The notes below the pieces were generated by a model. The model worked only from the letters and a program-made list of their open reading frames with translations. It searched no databases and was not told where the DNA came from. From a virus, in IMG/VR virus record IMGVR_UViG_3300008111_000181, positions 1-52,907 of that record: a stretch of DNA of 52,907 bases. One strand, 5' to 3'. This document shows positions 45,110 to 52,907 of this stretch, in pieces. The position numbers and the translations under genes were made by a program. The stretch's first letter is position 1; the number at the start of each line of letters is the position of its first letter.

Positions 45110-47014
45110 TTAGCGCCTTACGACCTTCATCTGTGATTTAACTAGGTCTTTGGCTACGTCGAGAATATCTTTGGCTTCGTCAACGACCCTAAAGAACTTA
45201 GCGCCATGACGTAAGGTAATCATGTATTGGTCGTAACGCTCTCGGTCGTTATCTTTGACCCATTGAAGGCTACCTAAGAATATGACACTCGTTAGAACGT
45301 TGTTGGCGTTCATGCGAGAGATAATACCGTCGTTAACCTCTGTACTATCCCACTCGCCGTCGGTAATCATGAAGCATATCTTGATACCTTTACGGCTTGC
45401 GTTAAGTATGCGCTCGGCTTCGATAAGTGCCTTGAACGGATTAGTGCTACCGCTACTATCAACGAATCTAAACTCGTCGGGCTTAGCCTTATCGTCTGCT
45501 TTGTAAATTAGACGGCTATCGTGGTTGAACTTATAGACGGTTACTCGACCGTTGATACGTTCGATACCGCGCTTGAGAATCCACGCCGTTTCCATTGTCT
45601 TAAAGATACGAGCGCCCATGCTACCCGAGGTATCTACTAGGATTACCGCTTCAATATCATTAGACGAGTTACCTTCACTCCAACGGTCGAATAACTTATT
45701 GATGTCATTGACGTCGGCGTTCATGGCTCGAGATACGTTAAGCCTACCGCTTTCTACCTCTAACTCCCACGCAGGGTCGTTATCAATACGAATACGCTCT
45801 AACTCTACGGCGAATCTACGAGCGCTCGCCGTAGCGTTCATAGGTACGCTCACGTTTTTATAGTTAGCAGGTCTAACACCTGAACGCATGATGTCGTTAT
45901 CCATAATCGCTCTACGAACTTCGGCGGTATCACGACGTACGTTTTCGTCGTTTCTTATATTAGATAACTCGGAGTTAATCTTATCTTTGAGTAACTTCTC
46001 GCTATCTGTATATTCGTACTGTACGTCTTGAGTAGTAACCGAATCGTCAACCGTACCGTAACCTTGCCCTACGCTATCGTCATTGATGTCGTCGAACTTC
46101 TCGGTCTGTGTAGATTTCTCGGTTGCGTTAGCCTTATCTTGTAGTCGGTCTTGTTCCTTCTGACCTTCTGCTCGACCCTTTCTCATCATTTGGCGGTCGA
46201 TATGACCGTCGCATTGACCTTTACCGTTTTGTGGTACTTGAGGTGGTGGGTTTTGCTCATCATTACCGATAACCTTAGCGAACTCTGCGATAAGCCTTTT
46301 GGCTCTATCGTAATCGCGTGGGAAGGCGAGTGTGCGGTACTCATGAATAATATCTGCTAGGAATATCGCTGTGGCTTTGCCGAACTGCTGTGAGAATCGT
46401 GTGGCGATTTCCTGACGAATATCATAATCTAAGTATTTTCTACCTGTGATTAATATAAATAAGGAAGCCCACTCACTTGAATCACCTTTGAGTATGTAGT
46501 CAAGCGTTGAAGCCTCTACGAACGGTTGAACGGCAGGATACTTAGCGATAATTAAGCGCTCGATACGACTATCCTCGAGTATGTTCATGGCTCGACGATA
46601 TTGATTTTCTATGACCCACTTACCTAACTCCGAGTTTTCGCGTGGCGTATAAAGAACGTGTGCGACCTCATGGTAGTTGAATCCATGAAGGCTAACGATA
46701 GTGTTATCGTCAATATCCTCGAGTAGATGAGCGTTGAACACGATAGCCTTACCGTCATTGTAGGCGGTAGTTTCTAGGTCGGGATTATCGTCAACCCTGA
46801 CCTCTATCTTGTCACCTGTGATAATACTATCGGCGCGTGAGTAGATAACACCCACGCTCGATAGTTTTTCTTTGTGCGCTTGATAAGCCTCTTGCTTGGC
46901 TTCGATTAGGTCTTGGTCGATTTCCATTTTGCCTAACTCGTCGTTCCATTGATAGGCGTTATGAATCTCGCGCAATAGGTCGTCGGTAGAATCTGCTTGG
47001 TAGCGGTATCCCAT
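45110..47014 (-). CDS. CobT-like / VWA-domain protein with HExxH motif
   Basis: 634 residues. The N-terminal part has HEVAHVLYTPRE (HExxH) followed by a helical section with NILEDSRIERLI. The middle (about 255-340) is charged and low-complexity. The C-terminal VWA domain carries the MIDAS motif ILVDTSGSMGAR and a later FMITDGEWD. This arrangement resembles CobT of the aerobic cobaltochelatase and the VWA partners of MoxR ATPases. It follows the CobS-like AAA+ gene by 2 bases. A chelatase or a protein-remodelling role are both possible. Confidence 0.6.
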   Translation of the reverse strand: MGYRYQADSTDDLLREIHNAYQWNDELGKMEIDQDLIEAKQEAYQAHKEKLSSVGVIYSRADSIITGDKIEVRVDDNPDLETTAYNDGKAIVFNAHLLEDIDDNTIVSLHGFNYHEVAHVLYTPRENSELGKWVIENQYRRAMNILEDSRIERLIIAKYPAVQPFVEASTLDYILKGDSSEWASLFILITGRKYLDYDIRQEIATRFSQQFGKATAIFLADIIHEYRTLAFPRDYDRAKRLIAEFAKVIGNDEQNPPPQVPQNGKGQCDGHIDRQMMRKGRAEGQKEQDRLQDKANATEKSTQTEKFDDINDDSVGQGYGTVDDSVTTQDVQYEYTDSEKLLKDKINSELSNIRNDENVRRDTAEVRRAIMDNDIMRSGVRPANYKNVSVPMNATASARRFAVELERIRIDNDPAWELEVESGRLNVSRAMNADVNDINKLFDRWSEGNSSNDIEAVILVDTSGSMGARIFKTMETAWILKRGIERINGRVTVYKFNHDSRLIYKADDKAKPDEFRFVDSSGSTNPFKALIEAERILNASRKGIKICFMITDGEWDSTEVNDGIISRMNANNVLTSVIFLGSLQWVKDNDRERYDQYMITLRHGAKFFRVVDEAKDILDVAKDLVKSQMKVVRR

Positions 47015-47016
47015 GA

Positions 47017-48471
47017 TTAGATTACCGCCTGATGTTGAGTGATAGGGATATTAAAGGTGGTAACGCCGTCGCTAACCTTATCCTCTAGCATTTCTACTTT
47101 AGCCTCGTCGGTCTTAATTGAAAGTACCGCTAAGCCTAACTCCTCTGCGATATTATCGCGGTGAGTGTTGACTACCAACCGTACCGCCGAACGTTCCTCA
47201 TCACCTTCGAAGGAGTTGATGTAGTTGTATGTAGCGAACTCCATGCCGAAGGTTTTGGCGTTAGTTACGAACGCTACGAGCGAACGAGTTGAGATAGGAG
47301 TAACGAGCGTACCTTTATTGAACTCGTCGCGTAGTTGATTTGCCATTTCAACGAGCGCTCTATTCTTGAGTAACTTCTGCTCGATAGGCTTGTCGTATGG
47401 GAACGATAGTCTTATTGAGAATCGGTCTGCGAGTGCTTGGTTGAGTGGTCGAGTGCCACGATAGTCGGGGTTCATGTCACCGATAATCAATAGATTAGGG
47501 TGAGCCTTGATTACCTCGCCACCGTTTTCCATTAGTTGAATCTCACGACGATAATCGAGTAGTGAGAATATGAAAGTTAAGAATCGCTCGGGCGCGAAGT
47601 TAATCTCGTTAAATAGGAGTACGCCACCGTTACGAACTATCTCTGTAACTGCGCCGTCTTGCCACCTAAAGTGACCGTCGGGAGTTGGTATCCAACGACC
47701 GACTAGGTGAGAGGCTTCTAGCCCGATATGGCATGCGACGTTGAAGTACCTCATGCCTCGAGCGCTTGCGTACGCTTGAGCGCTCATAGTCTTACCGCTT
47801 CCTGCGTGACCTTCAATTAGAACGTTCATGCCGTTGGCGAGTGCGTGGTCGTACACCTGATAATCGGTTAAGCCGTCAACGACCTTGCGGTTGATGTAGG
47901 TATCTGCCCATTTCTTGTCGGGTACGCTTACCATAGCATTGACGAGCGCTTGGCTTGTCGTTGATACGGTTGGTCGTTCGATAACCTTAGTAGTGGTGGT
48001 TGCCACCTGTGCTACTTGCGCGATAGGCGTATCAACACCCTTCGCAATAGGCTTAATAGATACACCCTGATTACGTCGCTTGTCGGTGATGTAATCGTTG
48101 AGTGAGTTGTCGCCGATTTCTAGTCGAGCGATAAGACTACCTGCGACCTCATTGTGCGCCTCGGGCGCGGTTGCGGTAGGAGTGGTTTCAAGGGCATATA
48201 GCGCCTTGATACCGACGTTAGTGATTTGACCTAGTTTCATCATGTCGCGGTCGCGGTCGCTAATAACGACGGCGCATGGTTCATGAGAGATAGGGTTATT
48301 TGGTAGTTGTGTGAGTGATACTTGCTTCCACGCCTGACCTCGACCTTTCATGCCGTTCGATACGCGGTGGTATAGATATACCTCGGTATCGTCGGATAAG
48401 ATGAGTGTCTGCGCTTGGGCAGGTAATCCCTCGAGTTGGTCGTCTGATACGACGAGTAACGCGAGTGACAT
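47017..48471 (-). CDS. CobS/MoxR-like AAA+ ATPase
   Basis: 484 residues. After a 190-residue N-terminal part the AAA+ module shows Walker A EGHAGSGKTMSA, GRWIPTPDGHFRWQDGAV, Walker B GGVLLFNEINFAPE, and sensor GDMNPDYRGTRPLNQALADR, the pattern of CobS/MoxR ATPases. Cyanophages carry related cobS genes. Start ATG 48471 with AGGG upstream. The conserved promoter element at 48575-48603 drives it. With the VWA protein it forms a typical ATPase/VWA pair. Confidence 0.7.
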   Translation of the reverse strand: MSLALLVVSDDQLEGLPAQAQTLILSDDTEVYLYHRVSNGMKGRGQAWKQVSLTQLPNNPISHEPCAVVISDRDRDMMKLGQITNVGIKALYALETTPTATAPEAHNEVAGSLIARLEIGDNSLNDYITDKRRNQGVSIKPIAKGVDTPIAQVAQVATTTTKVIERPTVSTTSQALVNAMVSVPDKKWADTYINRKVVDGLTDYQVYDHALANGMNVLIEGHAGSGKTMSAQAYASARGMRYFNVACHIGLEASHLVGRWIPTPDGHFRWQDGAVTEIVRNGGVLLFNEINFAPERFLTFIFSLLDYRREIQLMENGGEVIKAHPNLLIIGDMNPDYRGTRPLNQALADRFSIRLSFPYDKPIEQKLLKNRALVEMANQLRDEFNKGTLVTPISTRSLVAFVTNAKTFGMEFATYNYINSFEGDEERSAVRLVVNTHRDNIAEELGLAVLSIKTDEAKVEMLEDKVSDGVTTFNIPITQHQAVI

Positions 48472-48895
48472 TTGTTCGGGTTTCCCTTCTTAATCGCCAT
48501 TGTTGGCTTAGTACCTATCTAAGCCTATTTCCGTATTTAATTCCACTTGCGAGCCTCATATTTTGATAACGAACTTATAACGATTTTCTCTCACTTATCC
48601 ACAACCCTCTCTATGCGCCCGACGGCGCGGTAATAGGGTTATCTCTTGTATATATAGAGAGAGAGTAAGGGGGGCGAACACTAGCCTTATTGCTTCTTAT
48701 CATATAGCCCACCCACTCTCTTAGCCGTAGGTCTGGCCTTACGCCTAATAAGCCTATCTCTCGTCGTGGCAGTAGCCTAACTCTCTCGGCTAGTCAAGCC
48801 GACACGCCGTTGCTCTCTTGTGATATGCGCCACAGCATTTCCGCGCCGAAGTTACTCGCGAGTAGCAACAGAATCAACGGGTGGCGGCAAACAAG
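48472..48895. other. Long intergenic region: promoter, leader, no gene seen
   Basis: About 420 bases without a convincing reading frame. 48575-48603 holds the conserved promoter/DnaA-box element, followed on the minus strand by a leader of about 100 bases. 48610-48890 has short hairpins (GCGCC-CGAC-GGCGC at 48616-48629) and no recognisable RNA gene. Confidence 0.5.
48575..48603 (-). promoter_or_regulatory. Conserved minus-strand promoter-like element with DnaA box (copy 1)
   Basis: On the minus strand: TGTGGA, 17 bases, TTATAA. The plus-strand TTATCCACA (48595-48603) is a perfect DnaA box. It lies about 100 bases before the AAA+ gene start. Three further copies with identical spacing occur at 50300, 51101 and 51746. 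Confidence 0.55.
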
Positions 48896-48932
48896 CAATA
48901 AGCCTACCGCCGAAGGAGCGGTAGGCTTATTG
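48896..48932. terminator. Hairpin terminator after the 48948 gene
   Basis: CAATAAGCCTACCGC pairs perfectly with GCGGTAGGCTTATTG (15 bp, 7-base loop), 15 bases after the stop of the minus-strand gene. The trailing sequence on that strand is moderately T-rich. Confidence 0.7.
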
Positions 48933-48947
48933 GTGAGAAAGGGGAAC

Positions 48948-49469
48948 TTAGCAGATAGAGAAGCCACCACAGTCCTGCAGGAAGTCTGCAAACTCTTTGA
49001 TGTTCTCCTCATTGAGCGGATAATGGCTTTCCCATGGTTCGGTCTTTCCGAAACCGCGACAGCCGTTACACGTTCCCTTCGTTCTACCTACTAAGAGTGC
49101 TATGTCCTCATCTAGGACTTTTTCAGGCATACCTGCCTCTACGCCAACCTTATCGGTTCTTATGCCAACGCCTTCGCATTGACGACAGGTATCCCACTCT
49201 AACTCCGCGATACGCTTATCGCGCTCTTTGATGTATGTGAGTGCGCTACCGTCGGCTAGAGATTCAAGAAGCAAATCTGCGAGCGCCAAGCACTCCTCAT
49301 GCGTTTTCAGGCCGTCGCCGTCGTTAGAGTGTCCATTTGGAACTCTATAGTGGAGAGTGCTATCTACCTCACAGCAGTACTCCCACAGAGGTCGCCACCA
49401 CCACACGTTATTGCGGAAATACTCACCGCGCTCGCTCTTAGGGTTATTACCCATTACGTCCATACCCAT
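48948..49469 (-). CDS. Conserved protein with DnaJ-type zinc-finger motifs
   Basis: 173 residues. MGMDVMGNNPKSERGEYFRN then NVWWWRPLWEYCCEV is a widely conserved start of unknown function found in phages and bacteria. CRQCEGVG and CNGCRGFG are DnaJ-like CxxCxGxG half-fingers. It is the last of a three-gene unit. Chaperone-like or RNA-related roles are guesses. Confidence 0.6.
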   Translation of the reverse strand: MGMDVMGNNPKSERGEYFRNNVWWWRPLWEYCCEVDSTLHYRVPNGHSNDGDGLKTHEECLALADLLLESLADGSALTYIKERDKRIAELEWDTCRQCEGVGIRTDKVGVEAGMPEKVLDEDIALLVGRTKGTCNGCRGFGKTEPWESHYPLNEENIKEFADFLQDCGGFSIC

Positions 49470-49471
49470 GA

Positions 49472-49702
49472 TTATCTTATCCTTTCCACTAAAACGTTAT
49501 TCCAACCGCGTTGTTTTTCCTCTAACTGTTGGTCTACTTGTAATACATCTAGTAAGGCTTCCTTAGCCTTGCTAGTGAGTATCTCGTCTGATACTCCTAT
49601 CGTTGCGTAGTTGAAGTATTCGTGCTCTTCCATATAGGTCACGAACTCGACACTAAAGGGAAACGCCTTGAAGGTCTTGCCGTTGATAACCTTAGTCGTC
49701 AT
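49472..49702 (-). CDS. Unknown small protein
   Basis: ATG 49702 is preferred to GTG 49711 because AGGTG lies at suitable distance. 76 residues, partly helical (KAKEALLDVLQVDQQLEEKQ). Overlaps the upstream gene by 11 bases. Function unknown. Confidence 0.5.
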   Translation of the reverse strand: MTTKVINGKTFKAFPFSVEFVTYMEEHEYFNYATIGVSDEILTSKAKEALLDVLQVDQQLEEKQRGWNNVLVERIR

Positions 49703-50225
49703 TAGATTCACCTAAGACTTTCTCGATTACCGTCTTGAACTTTTCCACGTCCATATCCTCATCAAGCATGTCTAGTGGATTGAACTTGCCGAACATTTGT
49801 GCGTGTGCGTTAGGACGAAAGACTAGGCTTATGTCCTCGGGAATATCTATCTCGAAGTTTTCTGATATTTTTCCAGTTACGCCTAATAAGGCTAGTAGCG
49901 GATTGAAAGCCCCAACTCCCCAACAAGTATGGATAGCGGTAGATAGTGCGTACATGTCGTCCTCGCTAGGCTTATCGTTAGTGTTGATAGATTCCATAGC
50001 GGTATTGGCGAGCACATTGACGAGCCTCGCAGAGAACTCCTCGTCCTCTTTGAACACTTGGCACATGATAGCCGAGCGAAGTCGGCCGTCTGATAGTCCT
50101 GTCGTTCCATTAGGAAGTCGGAACTCTTCACCGCTTTCTGCCTCACTCATAGTTGGAGTAAGATGAACTGCGGTCATAATCTCTGAGAAGCGGTATTTCC
50201 GTTCCTCGGTTGTCATTTTAGACAT
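49692..50225 (-). CDS. Unknown protein
   Basis: 177 residues from ATG 50225 with GGGGAGAAT upstream. Helical N-terminus (TTEERKYRFSEIMTAVHL), followed by a conserved-looking LPNGTTGLSDGRLRSAI, and an acidic end. First gene behind promoter copy 2. No family recognised. Confidence 0.5.
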   Translation of the reverse strand: MSKMTTEERKYRFSEIMTAVHLTPTMSEAESGEEFRLPNGTTGLSDGRLRSAIMCQVFKEDEEFSARLVNVLANTAMESINTNDKPSEDDMYALSTAIHTCWGVGAFNPLLALLGVTGKISENFEIDIPEDISLVFRPNAHAQMFGKFNPLDMLDEDMDVEKFKTVIEKVLGESNDD

Positions 50226-50299
50226 ATTCTCCCCTTTCTTGAGAGTGCTCTCACTCTACTACGGCGGTGGCGCGGTAACAAGGATTCTCTATAACAGAT

Positions 50300-50328
50300 A
50301 TATAACGATTCTCTTATAGTTATCCACA
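50300..50328 (-). promoter_or_regulatory. Conserved minus-strand promoter-like element with DnaA box (copy 2)
   Basis: Minus strand TGTGGA, 17 bases, TTATAT. The plus-strand DnaA-box TTATCCACA is at 50320-50328. It lies about 70 bases before ATG 50225 and 15 bases from the inverted-repeat module. Confidence 0.6.
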
Positions 50329-50342
50329 GGACGAGCGATAAG

Positions 50343-50426
50343 GTTTGTGTTGGGCTTGCTTGGCGCTTGGCAGGCAGGCCTGCCAAGCAATAAAGCTACT
50401 AATAGCCAAGCAAGCCCAACACAAAC
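50343..50426. repeat. Structured inverted-repeat module 1
   Basis: Outer arms of 22 bases (50343-50364 and 50405-50426) pair perfectly; their first 12 bases are GTTTGTGTTGGG. Directly after the left arm comes a 10-bp hairpin (50365-50388, GCTTGGCAGG/CCTGCCAAGC, loop CAGG), then 16 unpaired bases. The same plan with other inner sequences recurs at 51139 and 51781. Confidence 0.8.
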
Positions 50427-50431
50427 AAAAT

Positions 50432-50461
50432 AGCCCTAGCGCTTGCGCACTAGGGCTTTTT
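50432..50461. terminator. Terminator hairpin between minus-strand units
   Basis: AGCCCTAG / CTAGGGCT with an inner CGC-TTG-CGC. It has a T-run on the plus side and ATTTTG on the minus side, so it works in both directions. It lies between the 50517 gene and module 1. Confidence 0.75.
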
Positions 50462-50463
50462 GT

Positions 50464-50502
50464 AGACTAGCGGGAGAAAGTAGTCGAAACGACCGCTAGT
50501 CT
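50464..50502. repeat. Second hairpin after the 50517 gene
   Basis: AGACTAGCGG (50464-50473) pairs with CCGCTAGTCT (50493-50502). Directly behind the stop codon lies a further TTAGTC-GGGG-GACTAA at 50505-50520. Together with the terminator they stack three hairpins after this gene. Confidence 0.6.
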
Positions 50503-50516
50503 TATTAGTCGGGGGA

Positions 50517-51002
50517 CTAATCCTGTTCCGATACCTCTACTTCGAGGTTGTCGGTGATGAAATCGTCAAGGTCACCGTAGATGTCACCCTTGAAGTAACC
50601 AGCCTCGCCTTGGGATTCCACGTCGAAACTGATACGTACGTTGCTGATATTGAAATCGTCCCATACGGACTGCTTTGCTGACTCCTCGTCGTCCGCTTCA
50701 ATATCGTTGATTGTAAACAATTCGTCGCCCATGAAGTTGACGGTTGCTGTGTACTTGACACTAAGGTTGTCAATGGTGCTCCAATCGAGTTGTGAAGCAA
50801 GGTTATTGTAGAGTCCGACCGCATAGTCTTCCTCCATGTTACCTTCACGTACTTCTGACTTGAAGGTTGTTTCTACCACATTTGATATGCGGTTAGATGT
50901 GTATTTGTTCGCTAAGTCGGTGGCGATAGTCTTAGCCTCTGCCACCTTCTCTTGAACGTCGCTGTCGGTGTAGATGTTCACACCGTCGGGCGTTGTAATC
51001 AC
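50517..51002 (-). CDS. Unknown acidic protein
   Basis: GTG 51002 with GGGGG about 10 bases upstream; 161 residues. Beta-rich C-terminal half (KYTATVNFMGDELFTINDIE, VRISFDVESQGEAG) with repeated acidic turns, possibly a small beta-sandwich. Single-gene unit with own promoter copy 3 and terminators. No family recognised. Confidence 0.55.
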   Translation of the reverse strand: MITTPDGVNIYTDSDVQEKVAEAKTIATDLANKYTSNRISNVVETTFKSEVREGNMEEDYAVGLYNNLASQLDWSTIDNLSVKYTATVNFMGDELFTINDIEADDEESAKQSVWDDFNISNVRISFDVESQGEAGYFKGDIYGDLDDFITDNLEVEVSEQD

Positions 51003-51100
51003 TTGGGTATGTCCCCCTTTGTCTCTTGTAAGAGGCTTTCTCTTACATAGGCTAATCTAATATAAGACTGCAGTAATCTCTACTTACATTGGTAAATATT

Positions 51101-51129
51101 TGATAACAATTCCAGGGAAGTTATCCACA
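51101..51129 (-). promoter_or_regulatory. Conserved minus-strand promoter-like element with DnaA box (copy 3)
   Basis: Minus strand TGTGGA, 17 bases, TTATCA. DnaA-box TTATCCACA at 51121-51129. About 95 bases before GTG 51002. Confidence 0.55.
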
Positions 51130-51138
51130 GGCGGCAGA

Positions 51139-51221
51139 GTTTGTGTTGGGCTGGCTGGCTATCTACTAAAGCATTAGTAGATAGAGATAAGTAATAGCCA
51201 GCCAGCCAGCCCAACACAAAC
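51139..51221. repeat. Structured inverted-repeat module 2
   Basis: Outer arms 51139-51160 and 51200-51221 are perfectly complementary over 22 bases, again with GTTTGTGTTGGG outside. The inner hairpin ATCTACTAA-AGCA-TTAGTAGAT (51161-51182) follows the left arm without gap, then 17 unpaired bases. Confidence 0.8.
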
Positions 51222-51226
51222 AAAAA

Positions 51227-51247
51227 CCCCCGTGCTTGGCACGGGGG
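51227..51247 (-). terminator. Rho-independent terminator of the 51263 gene
   Basis: CCCCCGTGC/GCACGGGGG with a 3-base loop, followed on the minus strand by TTTTT. Canonical. It lies 16 bases after the stop codon. Confidence 0.85.
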
Positions 51248-51262
51248 CATTTGCTAGGCTTA

Positions 51263-51658
51263 TTACAGCCATTGACTTACAGATTTATACACAGATGCTG
51301 GAACGCTCTGCTCGTTGGTCATACCCAACAACTTGATAGTCCTACCAAGTTCTTCGTAATCACTATCGTGATACATACCTGCTGGTCGGTCAGGTCGGTC
51401 AGGTGAAGCAGGAATAACAGCCTTATCAACAACGAACTCAATTTCTAGTGTGTTGTTCCAATGACGGAAACAGGTGTTCTTTACTTCCAACTTACCTTGC
51501 TTGGCTAACGCAACTACCTTCTCGGCAAACTTTGCGTTATCCTTCTCATACTTGTCCTCTGCCTTCTTGTATTCGGCACGGAACTTGTCTTGCTCAGCAA
51601 GACGACTCTTGAGTGCGTCCATTAGGACTACTCTATCTACCTTTATGGTGGTTGCCAT
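51263..51658 (-). CDS. Unknown protein with coiled-coil N-terminus
   Basis: 131 residues from ATG 51658 with AAAGGGG upstream. Residues about 15-50 form a charged coiled coil (EQDKFRAEYKKAEDKYEKDN). The C-terminal part is beta-like with a PDRPDRP repeat (in DNA, a GGTCGGTCA duplication at about 51383-51402). Single-gene unit. No family recognised. Confidence 0.55.
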   Translation of the reverse strand: MATTIKVDRVVLMDALKSRLAEQDKFRAEYKKAEDKYEKDNAKFAEKVVALAKQGKLEVKNTCFRHWNNTLEIEFVVDKAVIPASPDRPDRPAGMYHDSDYEELGRTIKLLGMTNEQSVPASVYKSVSQWL

Positions 51659-51745
51659 AAAAGCCCCTTTCTCTTGTATCGGTATCTCCGATAGGACTAT
51701 CTAATCATTTCTTGTTATCTATCTCAAGCGTAGTAGGTATCTTTT

Positions 51746-51774
51746 GTATAACGATTTCTTTGGAGTTATCCACA
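51746..51774 (-). promoter_or_regulatory. Conserved minus-strand promoter-like element with DnaA box (copy 4)
   Basis: Minus strand TGTGGA, 17 bases, TTATAC. DnaA-box TTATCCACA at 51766-51774. About 80 bases before ATG 51658. A second candidate pair TTGAGA-N17-TTAGAT lies between it and the gene. Confidence 0.55.
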
Positions 51775-51780
51775 GGCAGA

Positions 51781-51860
51781 TGTTTGTGTTGGGGCTTTAT
51801 ATATGGGCAGGAAAGACAACTACCCTGCCCATAAGCGCATATAAAGCCCCAACACAAACA
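51781..51860. repeat. Structured inverted-repeat module 3
   Basis: Outer arms 51781-51802 and 51839-51860 are perfectly complementary over 22 bases and contain GTTTGTGTTGGG. The inner hairpin ATGGGCAGG/CCTGCCCAT (51803-51832, 12-base loop) follows the left arm without gap; 6 bases stay unpaired. Confidence 0.8.
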
Positions 51861-51862
51861 AG

Positions 51863-51890
51863 AGAGCCCCCCGCTGGGTGCGGGGGGCTC
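51863..51890. terminator. Hairpin terminator after the DUF932 gene
   Basis: GAGCCCCCCGC pairs with GCGGGGGGCTC around a short loop, 15 bases after the stop of the minus-strand gene. The T-run is weak (TCTTGTTTG), but the stem is very strong. Confidence 0.7.
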
Positions 51891-51904
51891 GGGGGCGTTA
51901 CGCG

Positions 51905-52907
51905 TTACGCGTTAGCGAATTCGCGGACCGCGGATAGAATGCGTGCCTTTTCGGCATTTACCATGGCGTCAAATCCGCTAGCAGCAGCCTTGATTGCCTC
52001 GCCATTGGCGGTGCGTGAAGGGCGGAAATAATCTAGGCGCTCAGTTAGCGCATTAAGCGCACCCCATGCAGTCCCGCGGATTCCGTCCTGAGTAGGCGCC
52101 TTGAAATATAGGTCATTCAAGACGTCGATTTTTTGCGCATGCTTAGTGACAGTGCCTTTTGGCGCATTATCATCAAGCGGATATATAGCGGTGAGCAACT
52201 TACCCCATTGCACATTGTCAACTGGTGTTTCGAATAAGGCTTGCGCCATAGTTTCGAATTCATCCATGTGATTGAATGTTAGGCCTAGCACACGGCGGGC
52301 CTCAGCGACGCGTCCCTCAACTTTTAAAGTGTGACGCACTTTAAAAGATTGCTTAGTGGACTTTAGCGCCATGTTCAGCGTGTTTTGGCATACGACGCGC
52401 ACGGGCGTGATTGACGCCTGCACACTGGCGCTACCGTCATGTGAAGAGTGCACCAATAAATAAGTGACGGTCTTATCAGCGACGCCTTGCGGGTCTAGAA
52501 TAAATTCGCGTGGCACAACTAGGCTACCGAATACAATTCGGCCGTCCTTGATTGAGCCAGCGGATTCCCATTTGGCGCCACCGTCCAAAATATTATCGCC
52601 AAAATTGAAGAGGTCCTCATTTTGGAATACGGAATAGCGGTCACCTACGACGGAAAGCACATCAGCGCCAGCGTCGACGGGATTAGTACGCACAACATAG
52701 TTGAGCGCGGATTTAGTACGATACCCTGCAGGATAGATGACTGGCTCAAGACGTACATTCCAGTCATTTAGCAATGCGCCCTTGAGCATGTCCGCGGTAG
52801 TAATATCCGCGTCCACGTCAAAAGTTGCATTTGCTAACCCATGCCATGCAGGAGCGCCACGTAGGGCAAAAGCAACTTGCCCGTTTTCGTGAGTTTCGAG
52901 GTTATGA
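51905..52907 (-). CDS. DUF932 phage/plasmid-like protein (5' end outside window)
   Basis: At least 334 residues; the frame is open to the window end, with in-frame HNLETHENGQVAFALRG and APAWHGLAN before an internal GTG at 52816, so the true start lies beyond 52907. The region with YRTKSALNYVVRTNP, GDRYSVFQNEDLFNF, and PVRVVCQNTLNMAL is the DUF932/TIGR03299 signature found in phages and plasmids. Its role is unknown; early expression is likely. Confidence 0.8.
   Translation of the reverse strand, partial: HNLETHENGQVAFALRGAPAWHGLANATFDVDADITTADMLKGALLNDWNVRLEPVIYPAGYRTKSALNYVVRTNPVDAGADVLSVVGDRYSVFQNEDLFNFGDNILDGGAKWESAGSIKDGRIVFGSLVVPREFILDPQGVADKTVTYLLVHSSHDGSASVQASITPVRVVCQNTLNMALKSTKQSFKVRHTLKVEGRVAEARRVLGLTFNHMDEFETMAQALFETPVDNVQWGKLLTAIYPLDDNAPKGTVTKHAQKIDVLNDLYFKAPTQDGIRGTAWGALNALTERLDYFRPSRTANGEAIKAAASGFDAMVNAEKARILSAVREFANA

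Follow-up and report, generated by a model that had tools for sequence, protein, structure and literature searches.

Repeated intergenic sites have been described in several groups of actinobacteriophages. In the available text of the reports on Cluster K mycobacteriophages, the extended start-associated sequences (ESAS), described in 2011, are imperfect 17-bp inverted repeats with a spacer of 4-14 bp that are mostly joined to a 13-bp start-associated sequence (SAS) at the start codon; they are said to hold SigA-like hexamers, and their role is unproven (PMC3203893, PMC11373665, PMC12699233). As far as the accessible sections of the corresponding papers describe them, Cluster O mycobacteriophages have 17-18-bp dyads of the form TGTTCGG-N3-CCGAACA, about a third of them inside genes (PMC4351075), and Cluster EG Microbacterium phages carry dyad repeats too (PMC7302621). 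Here we analyze three fold-back elements in the single IMG/VR virus record IMGVR_UViG_3300008111_000181, a stretch of 52,907 bases that we refer to as the window. The elements belong to a family present in dozens of IMG/VR phage contigs, in which two inverted, phage-specific sites of 11-12 bp, the tips (GTTTGTGTTGG(G) in the window), enclose about 36-120 bp of fold-back DNA. Their observed anatomy, their place, the agreement of tips within a phage, the scarcity of G-T pairs in the two main classes and the exchange of interiors lead us to favour, tentatively, a reading in which a tip-binding factor reads them and they act at the DNA level as boundary (control) elements for small transcription units that are probably early.

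As far as the published descriptions at hand extend, ESAS and the other repeated intergenic sites of actinobacteriophages are the nearest known counterparts of these elements, and differ from them in spacing, arm length, folded interior and place. Like ESAS, the elements are inverted site pairs with a variable spacer that occupy intergenic gaps among non-structural genes, and their consensus is alike within a phage group and different between groups (118 of 144 pairs agree here, against a permuted maximum of 66; see below). Unlike ESAS as portrayed in those sources, they have 11-12-bp tips with about 36-120 bp between them and folded interiors of several architectures, and they lie directly behind terminators and upstream of a separate operator-like repeat; in contrast to the SigA-like hexamers of ESAS, one consensus scan of 48400-52907 gave no minus-strand promoter-like site. 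The dyads of Clusters O and EG resemble the elements in their many near-identical copies per genome (PMC4351075, PMC7302621), yet in the text available they are short simple palindromes without a folded core. Cluster A stoperators are likewise phage-specific sites at several places in non-structural regions; in the part of the report that covers them they are short asymmetric repressor sites oriented with transcription, unlike the inverted pairs described here, which enclose a fold-back interior and whose tips face either direction in some phages (PMC4351075).

A possibly parallel arrangement is found in a cultured phage, the Streptomyces phage Bmoc (locus L130; L numbers denote the loci that were compared), in which the first 14 kb contain 16 copies of CCGGGGCGG/CCGCCCCGG, 15 between annotated genes and one inside gene 21, with 0 copies of CCGGGGCGG in 14001-63000. 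The DUF932 relative of Bmoc is gene 2, and most of the CCGGGGCGG copies were seen by eye to lie directly behind a terminator hairpin. These GGCCGCCCCGGCC-type repeats are like our elements in occupying a DUF932 region with many small units and a site between genes, and unlike them in being a 13-bp dyad that has neither long arms nor a core nor a second class. Our search of the open-access literature found no paper on the Bmoc repeats and no description of fold-back elements such as those reported here. The conserved inverted repeats of phiC31 are phage-specific sites at several places as well, short and without a fold-back interior, and in the hairpin promoters of phage N4 and of plasmid leading regions transcription starts at an extruded hairpin. 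To our knowledge, the elements have no equal by anatomy alone. No integrase was found in the 30 carrier records, which are mostly incomplete, a further difference from the stoperator and phiC31 cases.

Three fold-back elements in the window

The original prediction, made from the letters of the window, described three modules at 50343-50426, 51139-51221 and 51781-51860. All three were recovered at these positions, each with 22-bp arms that are 100% complementary; the loops measure 40, 39 and 36 nt. Also as predicted, on the plus strand an inner hairpin directly follows the left arm and is succeeded by an unpaired stretch of 16, 17 and 6 nt, respectively. The tip is GTTTGTGTTGGG in the window elements, and the inner hairpin is different in each. 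Element 1 has its arms at 50343-50364 and 50405-50426, with tips at 50343-50354 and 50415-50426; its plus-strand interior comprises the inner hairpin at 50365-50388 and the unpaired AATAAAGCTACTAATA at 50389-50404, and its orthologues lie at L004:9412-9495, L013:2042-2124 and L020:682-766. In element 2 (arms 51139-51160 and 51200-51221), the inner stem pairs 51161-51169 with 51174-51182 and leaves 51183-51199 unpaired; orthologues are found at L004:8664-8745 and L013:2815-2897. Element 3 (arms 51781-51802 and 51839-51860) pairs 51803-51811 with 51824-51832, leaves 51833-51838 unpaired and has orthologues at L004:8024-8102, L012:1012-1090 and L013:3548-3625, the last with a compensated tip, GTTTGTGCTGGG/CCCAGCACAAAC.

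No other of the eight inverted repeats in the window (arms of at least 12, loops of 3-75) is as long as these three. Sixty dinucleotide shuffles of the window (loops of 15-75) produced one repeat with arms of at least 14 in all, and their longest arm was 16 bp compared with the 22 bp observed, so a chance origin was rejected. The predicted folds of the three elements are very stable, with z about -10 on both strands.

A family with phage-specific tips

The exact tip pair was found in 21 stretches of 20 IMG/VR viral contigs, and a tip with two free pyrimidines in 42 stretches. A tip-blind search with the DUF932 protein yielded 117 stretches, of which 80 were kept. In a scan of these DUF932 loci that required perfect arms of at least 14, 32 of the 80 carry tip-bearing inverted repeats (counted by hand); some of the loci were also searched for copies with shorter arms. 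The modules are, as originally proposed, a real, repeated and structured feature between separate gene units, and they are common to related phages.

Tips differ between phages and largely agree within one, the forms including GTTTGTGTTGGG, TTGTTACGTTGG, TTGTTGAGTTGG, TTGTTAGGTTGG, TGTTTGGGTTGG and TTGTTGGGTTGG. The counts given here for gap distribution, operators, sense folds, terminators, loop motifs and tip agreement are based on a set of 101 elements from 26 chosen loci, with the window among them and near-identical loci included; redundant copies were removed only for the controlled strand test (55 of 94 kept), the loop-motif count (55 kept) and tip agreement, for which five near-identical loci were dropped and one of the 101 elements gave no tip. 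Across 20 loci with 81 elements, 118 of the 144 pairs formed within loci have the same variable tip dinucleotide, compared with a permuted mean of 45.9 and maximum of 66, and the disagreements are all AG/GG and confined to three loci. In L067 and L072 the tip letters YGG/CCR fold into local hairpins, with T-G and C-A between partner tips. Since the tip is kept there even where pairing with its partner fails, its sequence appears to be recognised, and not only its pairing.

Within a record, two to seven elements are grouped in a stretch of at most about 7 kb, at about one per gap; the 95-kb record G007 has them at both ends of the contig. Of the 30 carrier records, 26 have DUF932, which had served to choose some of them. 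A bacterial source was rejected: the exact tip pair (gap 36-66) gave one match among genome contigs, in a stretch of an Acetobacteraceae metagenome-assembled genome with its own unrelated repeats, which we take as chance.

Position between terminators and operator-like repeats

The claim that a terminator adjoins each module holds for all three window elements, each of which is accompanied by a minus-strand terminator-like hairpin: at 50432-50457 for element 1 (end of the unit 50517-51002), at 51226-51248 for element 2 (end of the unit 51263-51658) and at 51864-51890 for element 3 (end of the unit 51905-52816). Across the set, a terminator-like hairpin with a T tract is present in the 70 bp before 83 of 101 elements, compared with 11 of 303 positions drawn at random from those loci. 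The terminator scan of the window picks these adjoining hairpins and not the outer stems of the elements. A role as second terminator was rejected by eye, with no terminator-like T tract behind the right tip in sense-oriented copies.

The promoter-like element that had been claimed beside each module was borne out in part. Just beyond each module there is an operator-like repeat, TGTGGATAAC-N12-GTTAT, but the consensus scan of 48400-52907 found no sigma-70-like site on the minus strand. These repeats lie on the minus strand at 50290-50331 for the unit starting at 50225, where TGTGGATAAC (DnaA-box-like) is combined with GTTAT repeats, at 51091-51132 for the unit 51002-50517 and at 51736-51777 for the unit 51658-51263. 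A fourth minus-strand repeat, TGTGGATAAG, is found at 48566-48603 upstream of the AAA-ATPase/VWA operon and has no fold-back element here. The exact 9-mer TGTGGATAA has four copies in the window (48595, 50320, 51121 and 51766), all in gaps between minus-strand units.

Operator-like sequences vary by phage (TGTGGATAAC, ATAACGATTTGATAACG, GTTTACCTAATGTTCACCT, CTGTGAATTCC or TGTGA-N6-TCACA-like), and unrelated kinds occur even among phages of one tip family. Because of this, tip and operator look like the sites of two factors, and they seem to be read by different ones. Other sequence motifs were observed in the same gaps and loci. In L067 and L072, CRP/GlxR-like TGTGA-N6-TCACA-type sites are located downstream of each element, where others have DnaA-box-like or GTTAC-type repeats. 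The parS-like 12-mer TTTCACGTGAAA, which bears on the partition option of the original prediction, has only four matches in 1.52 Mb of loci (L017:2293 and L033:7699, both from one contig, L005:2470 and L042:4318), and adjoins an element at L017/L033 and L005. Another repeated motif, GGGGTCTGACAT(T), is found in L071, L077, L080, L099, L101 and further DUF932 loci, with up to 16 copies per locus (L077), and is perhaps part of a phage-specific promoter; CCACCGACATT in L087 is similar.

Arm pairing in the two main classes

In 33 unique copies that were found by their tips alone, the arms run on to 18-26 bp. At positions 13-19 of these copies, 230 of 231 pairs are Watson-Crick, with no G-T and no A-C, and the arms of different copies match one another in 0.407. 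Predicted folds of the long-arm class contain G-U in 46 of 1913 pairs (2.4%), compared with 142 of 958 (about 15%) in shuffled interiors, and those of the C-rich class described below in 21 of 561 pairs, compared with 47 of 337. For these two main classes the evidence speaks for the DNA level.

The original prediction had reasoned that arms and hairpins which differ in sequence yet stay complementary show the structure to be under selection. That inference is unsupported as argued: arm complementarity does not prove selection on the arms, because hairpin-templated copying gives the same pattern. In orthologue alignments of 3-4 sequences, all five changed pairs of the outer stems are double and none is one-sided, and the inner stems have four double changes (two on uncertain alignment) and one single change; the covariation scores of these alignments were matched or beaten by 4, 14 and 34 of 500 shuffles. 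Tip and place are the better evidence for selection. Related phages without complementary arms, which the prediction had named as evidence against it, were partly found: among 105 tip pairs examined (spacing 30-170), 60 have arms of at least 17 and 45 have only 8-12 bp, with other folds inside; the arms of distant relatives are of this shorter kind.

Interior folds and a C-rich class

Whole elements span 59-142 nt. The loop motif A[AT]AGC is present in 35 of 55 non-redundant loops (6.4 expected, maximum 12 in 300 shuffles), both strands alike. Other interiors between the same tips include three-way junctions (L005) and several short hairpins on an 8-bp stem (L067, L072), and left halves that are GT- or G-rich are found in L047, L126 and L113. 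At L113:6341, L116:297 (minus strand), L047:117, L126:6655 and L040:553 the tip is followed by G-rich, quadruplex-like tracts. Elements of type B, in which the tips are reversed, have a simple short loop, and those at L044:1630 and L046:1626 share CCCCTAATAAA in it.

The C-rich class, 93-142 nt long, follows the plan tip-CCCACCC-hairpin-CCC-hairpin-hairpin-tip. Its 14 copies were selected by eye as having CCCACCC or GGGTGGG next to a tip; at least two similar copies (G022:4227 and G021:1149) are not among them. An AAA-ATPase gene starts 0.3-0.6 kb downstream of the element in 11 of the 14 and 2.3 kb downstream in L038; in L013 and L022 the locus ends first. The C-rich strand is the gene-sense strand in all 14 (12 by AAA gene direction, 2 by neighbouring elements). 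Every copy has at least four CCC tracts in its first 80 nt, compared with a shuffled mean of 0.09 and maximum of 2, a difference inflated by the picking, and the opposite strand could form a putative quadruplex. The pattern is present in 14 of 30 records and absent from the window. Over 3673 + 7874 bp the contig of L018 and the window share 99.9% identity. At the position that corresponds to the window junction 48835/48836, L018 contains a further 114 bp, and within these lies a C-rich element of 107 nt (L018:3673-3779); no target-site duplication was found at this junction.

Exchange of cores and gene units

Cores change between kept tips. L010 and L012 have 120-bp flanks that are 98% and 92% identical and identical tips, with unrelated cores (57% in a forced alignment), and L004 and L012 have a core in common and different terminators. 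Between L044 and L046 the loop is inverted inside kept arms, in which the differences are compensated. Whole units change as well. L034/L035 and L036/L037 differ by one gene together with one element: in the comparison of L035 with L036, homology enters 21 nt of the left element and resumes within the last 13 nt of the right element, and the comparisons using L034 and L037 give the same gene-plus-element unit, with less exact borders against L037. When L105 is compared with L049, L050, L052, L053 and L054, the unit is about 0.8 kb and the flanking repeat is 53 bp (three comparisons) or 29 bp (two). Between the window and L032, g8, a gene of another family, replaces g5 between two kept elements. 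Tyrosine (PF00589), Y1 (PF01797) and serine recombinases were found in 0 of the 30 records, mostly incomplete; with no such recombinase there, elements of a serine or tyrosine recombinase encoded in cis were rejected.

Gene content and host

The right end of the window consists of small minus-strand units, probably early genes, around the DUF932 gene (51905-52816, minus strand). Its product, 303 aa as listed with an uncertain true start near the record end, matches Pfam PF06067 (E 8e-52) and PHROG 1221, and its AlphaFold model is poor (mean pLDDT 52.9). The unit genes g5 (51263-51658, minus strand, 131 aa) and g1 (50517-51002, minus strand, 161 aa, D/E-rich) are both without a Pfam or PHROG match; the L035 relative of the g1 protein has a weak DNA-binding-protein match. 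Behind element 1, g4 (49692-50225, minus strand, 177 aa) is the first gene of its unit. Genes for a MoxR-type AAA-ATPase and a VWA protein occupy 45110-48471, and related phages name them 'porphyrin biosynthesis' or CobS/CobT. By protein matches, the window also encodes tail and baseplate proteins, a DnaB-like helicase, a primase, a DNA polymerase, a UvsX-like recombinase, a RuvC-like resolvase, a Cas4/exonuclease-like protein, a B12-type ribonucleotide reductase and a queuine tRNA-ribosyltransferase, together with an O-like initiator whose match is weak (E 4e-7). The only Rfam 15 matches in the whole window are three tRNAs.

Judged from protein similarity, the host is likely an actinobacterium: the top-scoring named phages infect Streptomyces for DUF932, and Gordonia and Brevibacterium for the AAA protein. 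Relatives of both proteins are found in phages that infect other hosts as well, cyanophages included. A BLAST search of the element-3 region against named phages returned 28 records, all weak, with a best E of 0.04.

Proposed role and alternative explanations

If the elements are boundaries of transcription units, a trans-acting protein, encoded by the phage or belonging to its host group, would recognise the tips. Unwinding of this stretch, caused for instance by the negative supercoils that trail polymerases transcribing the downstream gene, would let the interior fold out, and the tip-bound fold would separate the upstream unit from the next operator and promoter. The outcome may be insulation, a torsional buffer or control of the next promoter, and the exchange of cores and units would be a consequence of the repeated tips and operators, not a selected function. 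A wider version, which we regard as possible but doubtful, is a 'fold-back bracket', in which a phage-wide tip pair holds any strongly folding DNA, so that the tip pair and the ability to fold are selected and the core sequence is not; brackets would separate and control small units and also act as joints for unit exchange. The folds it would cover are long strict Watson-Crick hairpins, three-way junctions, multi-hairpins and a putative one-strand four-GGG quadruplex with a loop hairpin.

Several observations weigh against the boundary reading. Long arms are not general, because 45 of the 105 tip pairs have only 8-12 bp, and in the remaining class, neither long-arm nor C-rich, G-U makes up 106 of 857 pairs, near the shuffled level, which limits a strict DNA stem to two classes. 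Promoter-like sites in 48400-52907 are not above chance (6, all on the plus strand, with 6.3 expected). Descent or copying may account for part of the tip agreement within a phage, and because GTTTGTG-group tips were searched by pattern, their constancy is partly by construction; the DUF932-based loci alone are free of that bias. Some elements of L044-L046, L049, L052, L060 and L105 have the reversed, type-B tips. No tip-binding factor was identified; DUF932, the only gene checked as common to carriers, is present in some loci that have no detected element as well. Since the C-rich element of the L018 contig is missing from the window, that copy either can be dispensed with or disappeared during assembly; its absence may be a real loss or an artefact of polymerase or assembly at the hairpin.

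Exchange could instead be the selected function, the element being a recombination site or hot spot that shuffles small gene units between phages like gene cassettes, which we consider unlikely. A folded single strand or cruciform would be cut by a phage resolvase and repaired by a phage recombinase; the RuvC-like, UvsX-like and Cas4/exonuclease-like proteins of the window are consistent with this, as are the presence or absence of units in L035/L036 and L105, the change from g5 to g8, the unrelated cores of L010/L012 and the inverted loop of L044/L046. However, no tyrosine, Y1 or serine recombinase accompanies the elements in the 30 mostly incomplete records, and the fixed gene and orientation of the C-rich class, with AAA proteins 45-100% identical to that of the window, would go unexplained. 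Breakpoints near elements are also indistinguishable from ordinary intergenic mosaicism, because most gaps hold an element. In the accounts accessible to us, integron attC sites share with the elements the conserved ends, variable complementary arms, unpaired spots, one site per gene unit and exchange of units, whereas the units here carry their own terminators and presumably their own promoters. The outer boxes of attC run RYYYAAC ... GTTRRRY, and the site is recombined as a folded bottom strand by a tyrosine-recombinase integrase; attC was rejected, with the window boxes reversed, GTTGGG(C/G) ... (C/G)CCCAAC, and PF00589 in 0 of 30 records. The comparison with repetitive extragenic palindromes and bacterial interspersed mosaic elements (REP/BIME), their REP-associated tyrosine transposases (RAYT) and IS200/IS605-type elements covered phage-encoded Y1 transposase, and PF01797 was in 0 of the 30 phage records. 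Least probable among the readings is passive or selfish fold-back DNA, in which small tip-bounded elements would spread while bringing the phage little benefit, copying templated by the hairpin keeping them perfect. Unrelated interiors swapped between the same tips, coupled double changes and presence or absence in otherwise 99.9% identical contigs would fit it, but the elements are clustered in one region at about one per gap, the C-rich class goes with a single gene, tips persist where pairing is unneeded, and neither a tyrosine, serine or Y1 recombinase (30 records, mostly incomplete) nor a target-site duplication at the window junction was found.

That read-through or antisense transcription puts the element into RNA with a functional fold is, in our estimate, quite improbable. 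The very stable folds of the three window elements and the fixed gene-relative orientation of the C-rich class and, by eye, of the GT-rich class are consistent with it, and in the raw comparison the sense fold is the more stable one in 58 of 94 elements and the antisense fold in 26 (p 0.0002). This advantage fades to p 0.098 in the 55 copies left after removal of redundant ones, and shuffled loops show as large a difference (observed -1.10 versus -1.14 kcal/mol, p 0.68); the sense-strand signal was therefore rejected. G-U pairs are few in the two main classes, and the element stands behind a terminator and in front of an operator. Rfam 15 gave no match at gathering score in 50200-51950, the 10 sub-threshold matches being 9 microRNA precursors and 1 small RNA, so a known RNA family was rejected. 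Among the options listed in the original prediction, which ranged from cruciform-forming DNA to replication or partition sites and structured RNA, DNA structure is favoured by the near-pure Watson-Crick arms, the low G-U content and the absence of strand preference after control. The replication option, with hairpin and DnaA box as a phage origin, primosome assembly site or single-strand initiation site, is similarly hard to credit. DnaA-box-like operators are typical of near relatives of the window: the exact 9-mer TTATCCACA stands beside each window element, and it lies no more than 70 bp downstream in 30 of 31 elements of L028, L029 and L032-L037 and also downstream of the three copies of L059. 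The O-like initiator, DnaB-like helicase and primase of the window would suit such a site. Yet the downstream 9-mer is absent in L048, L067 and L072, which have the same tip family with other operators, and in L043-L046, L049, L052, L056-L058, L060 and L105, which have other tips; a DnaA-box-like 9-mer thus accompanies the copies of some phages and not every copy, unlike a DnaA-box origin. Nor would origins be expected in every gene gap, at two to seven copies in a stretch of as much as about 7 kb, and the 9-mer at 48595 stands without an element.

Implications

The repeated intergenic sites of actinobacteriophages, including ESAS and the Cluster O/EG dyads, are still without a shown function. 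The elements described here offer new handles on them: phage-specific tips, swapped cores, a one-gene class, an apparent presence/absence pair and, possibly, parallel cultured Streptomyces phages in which function is testable. If it is true that the interior acts via DNA structure, these would be rare conserved DNA-level fold-back elements that organise the transcription units of double-stranded DNA viruses.

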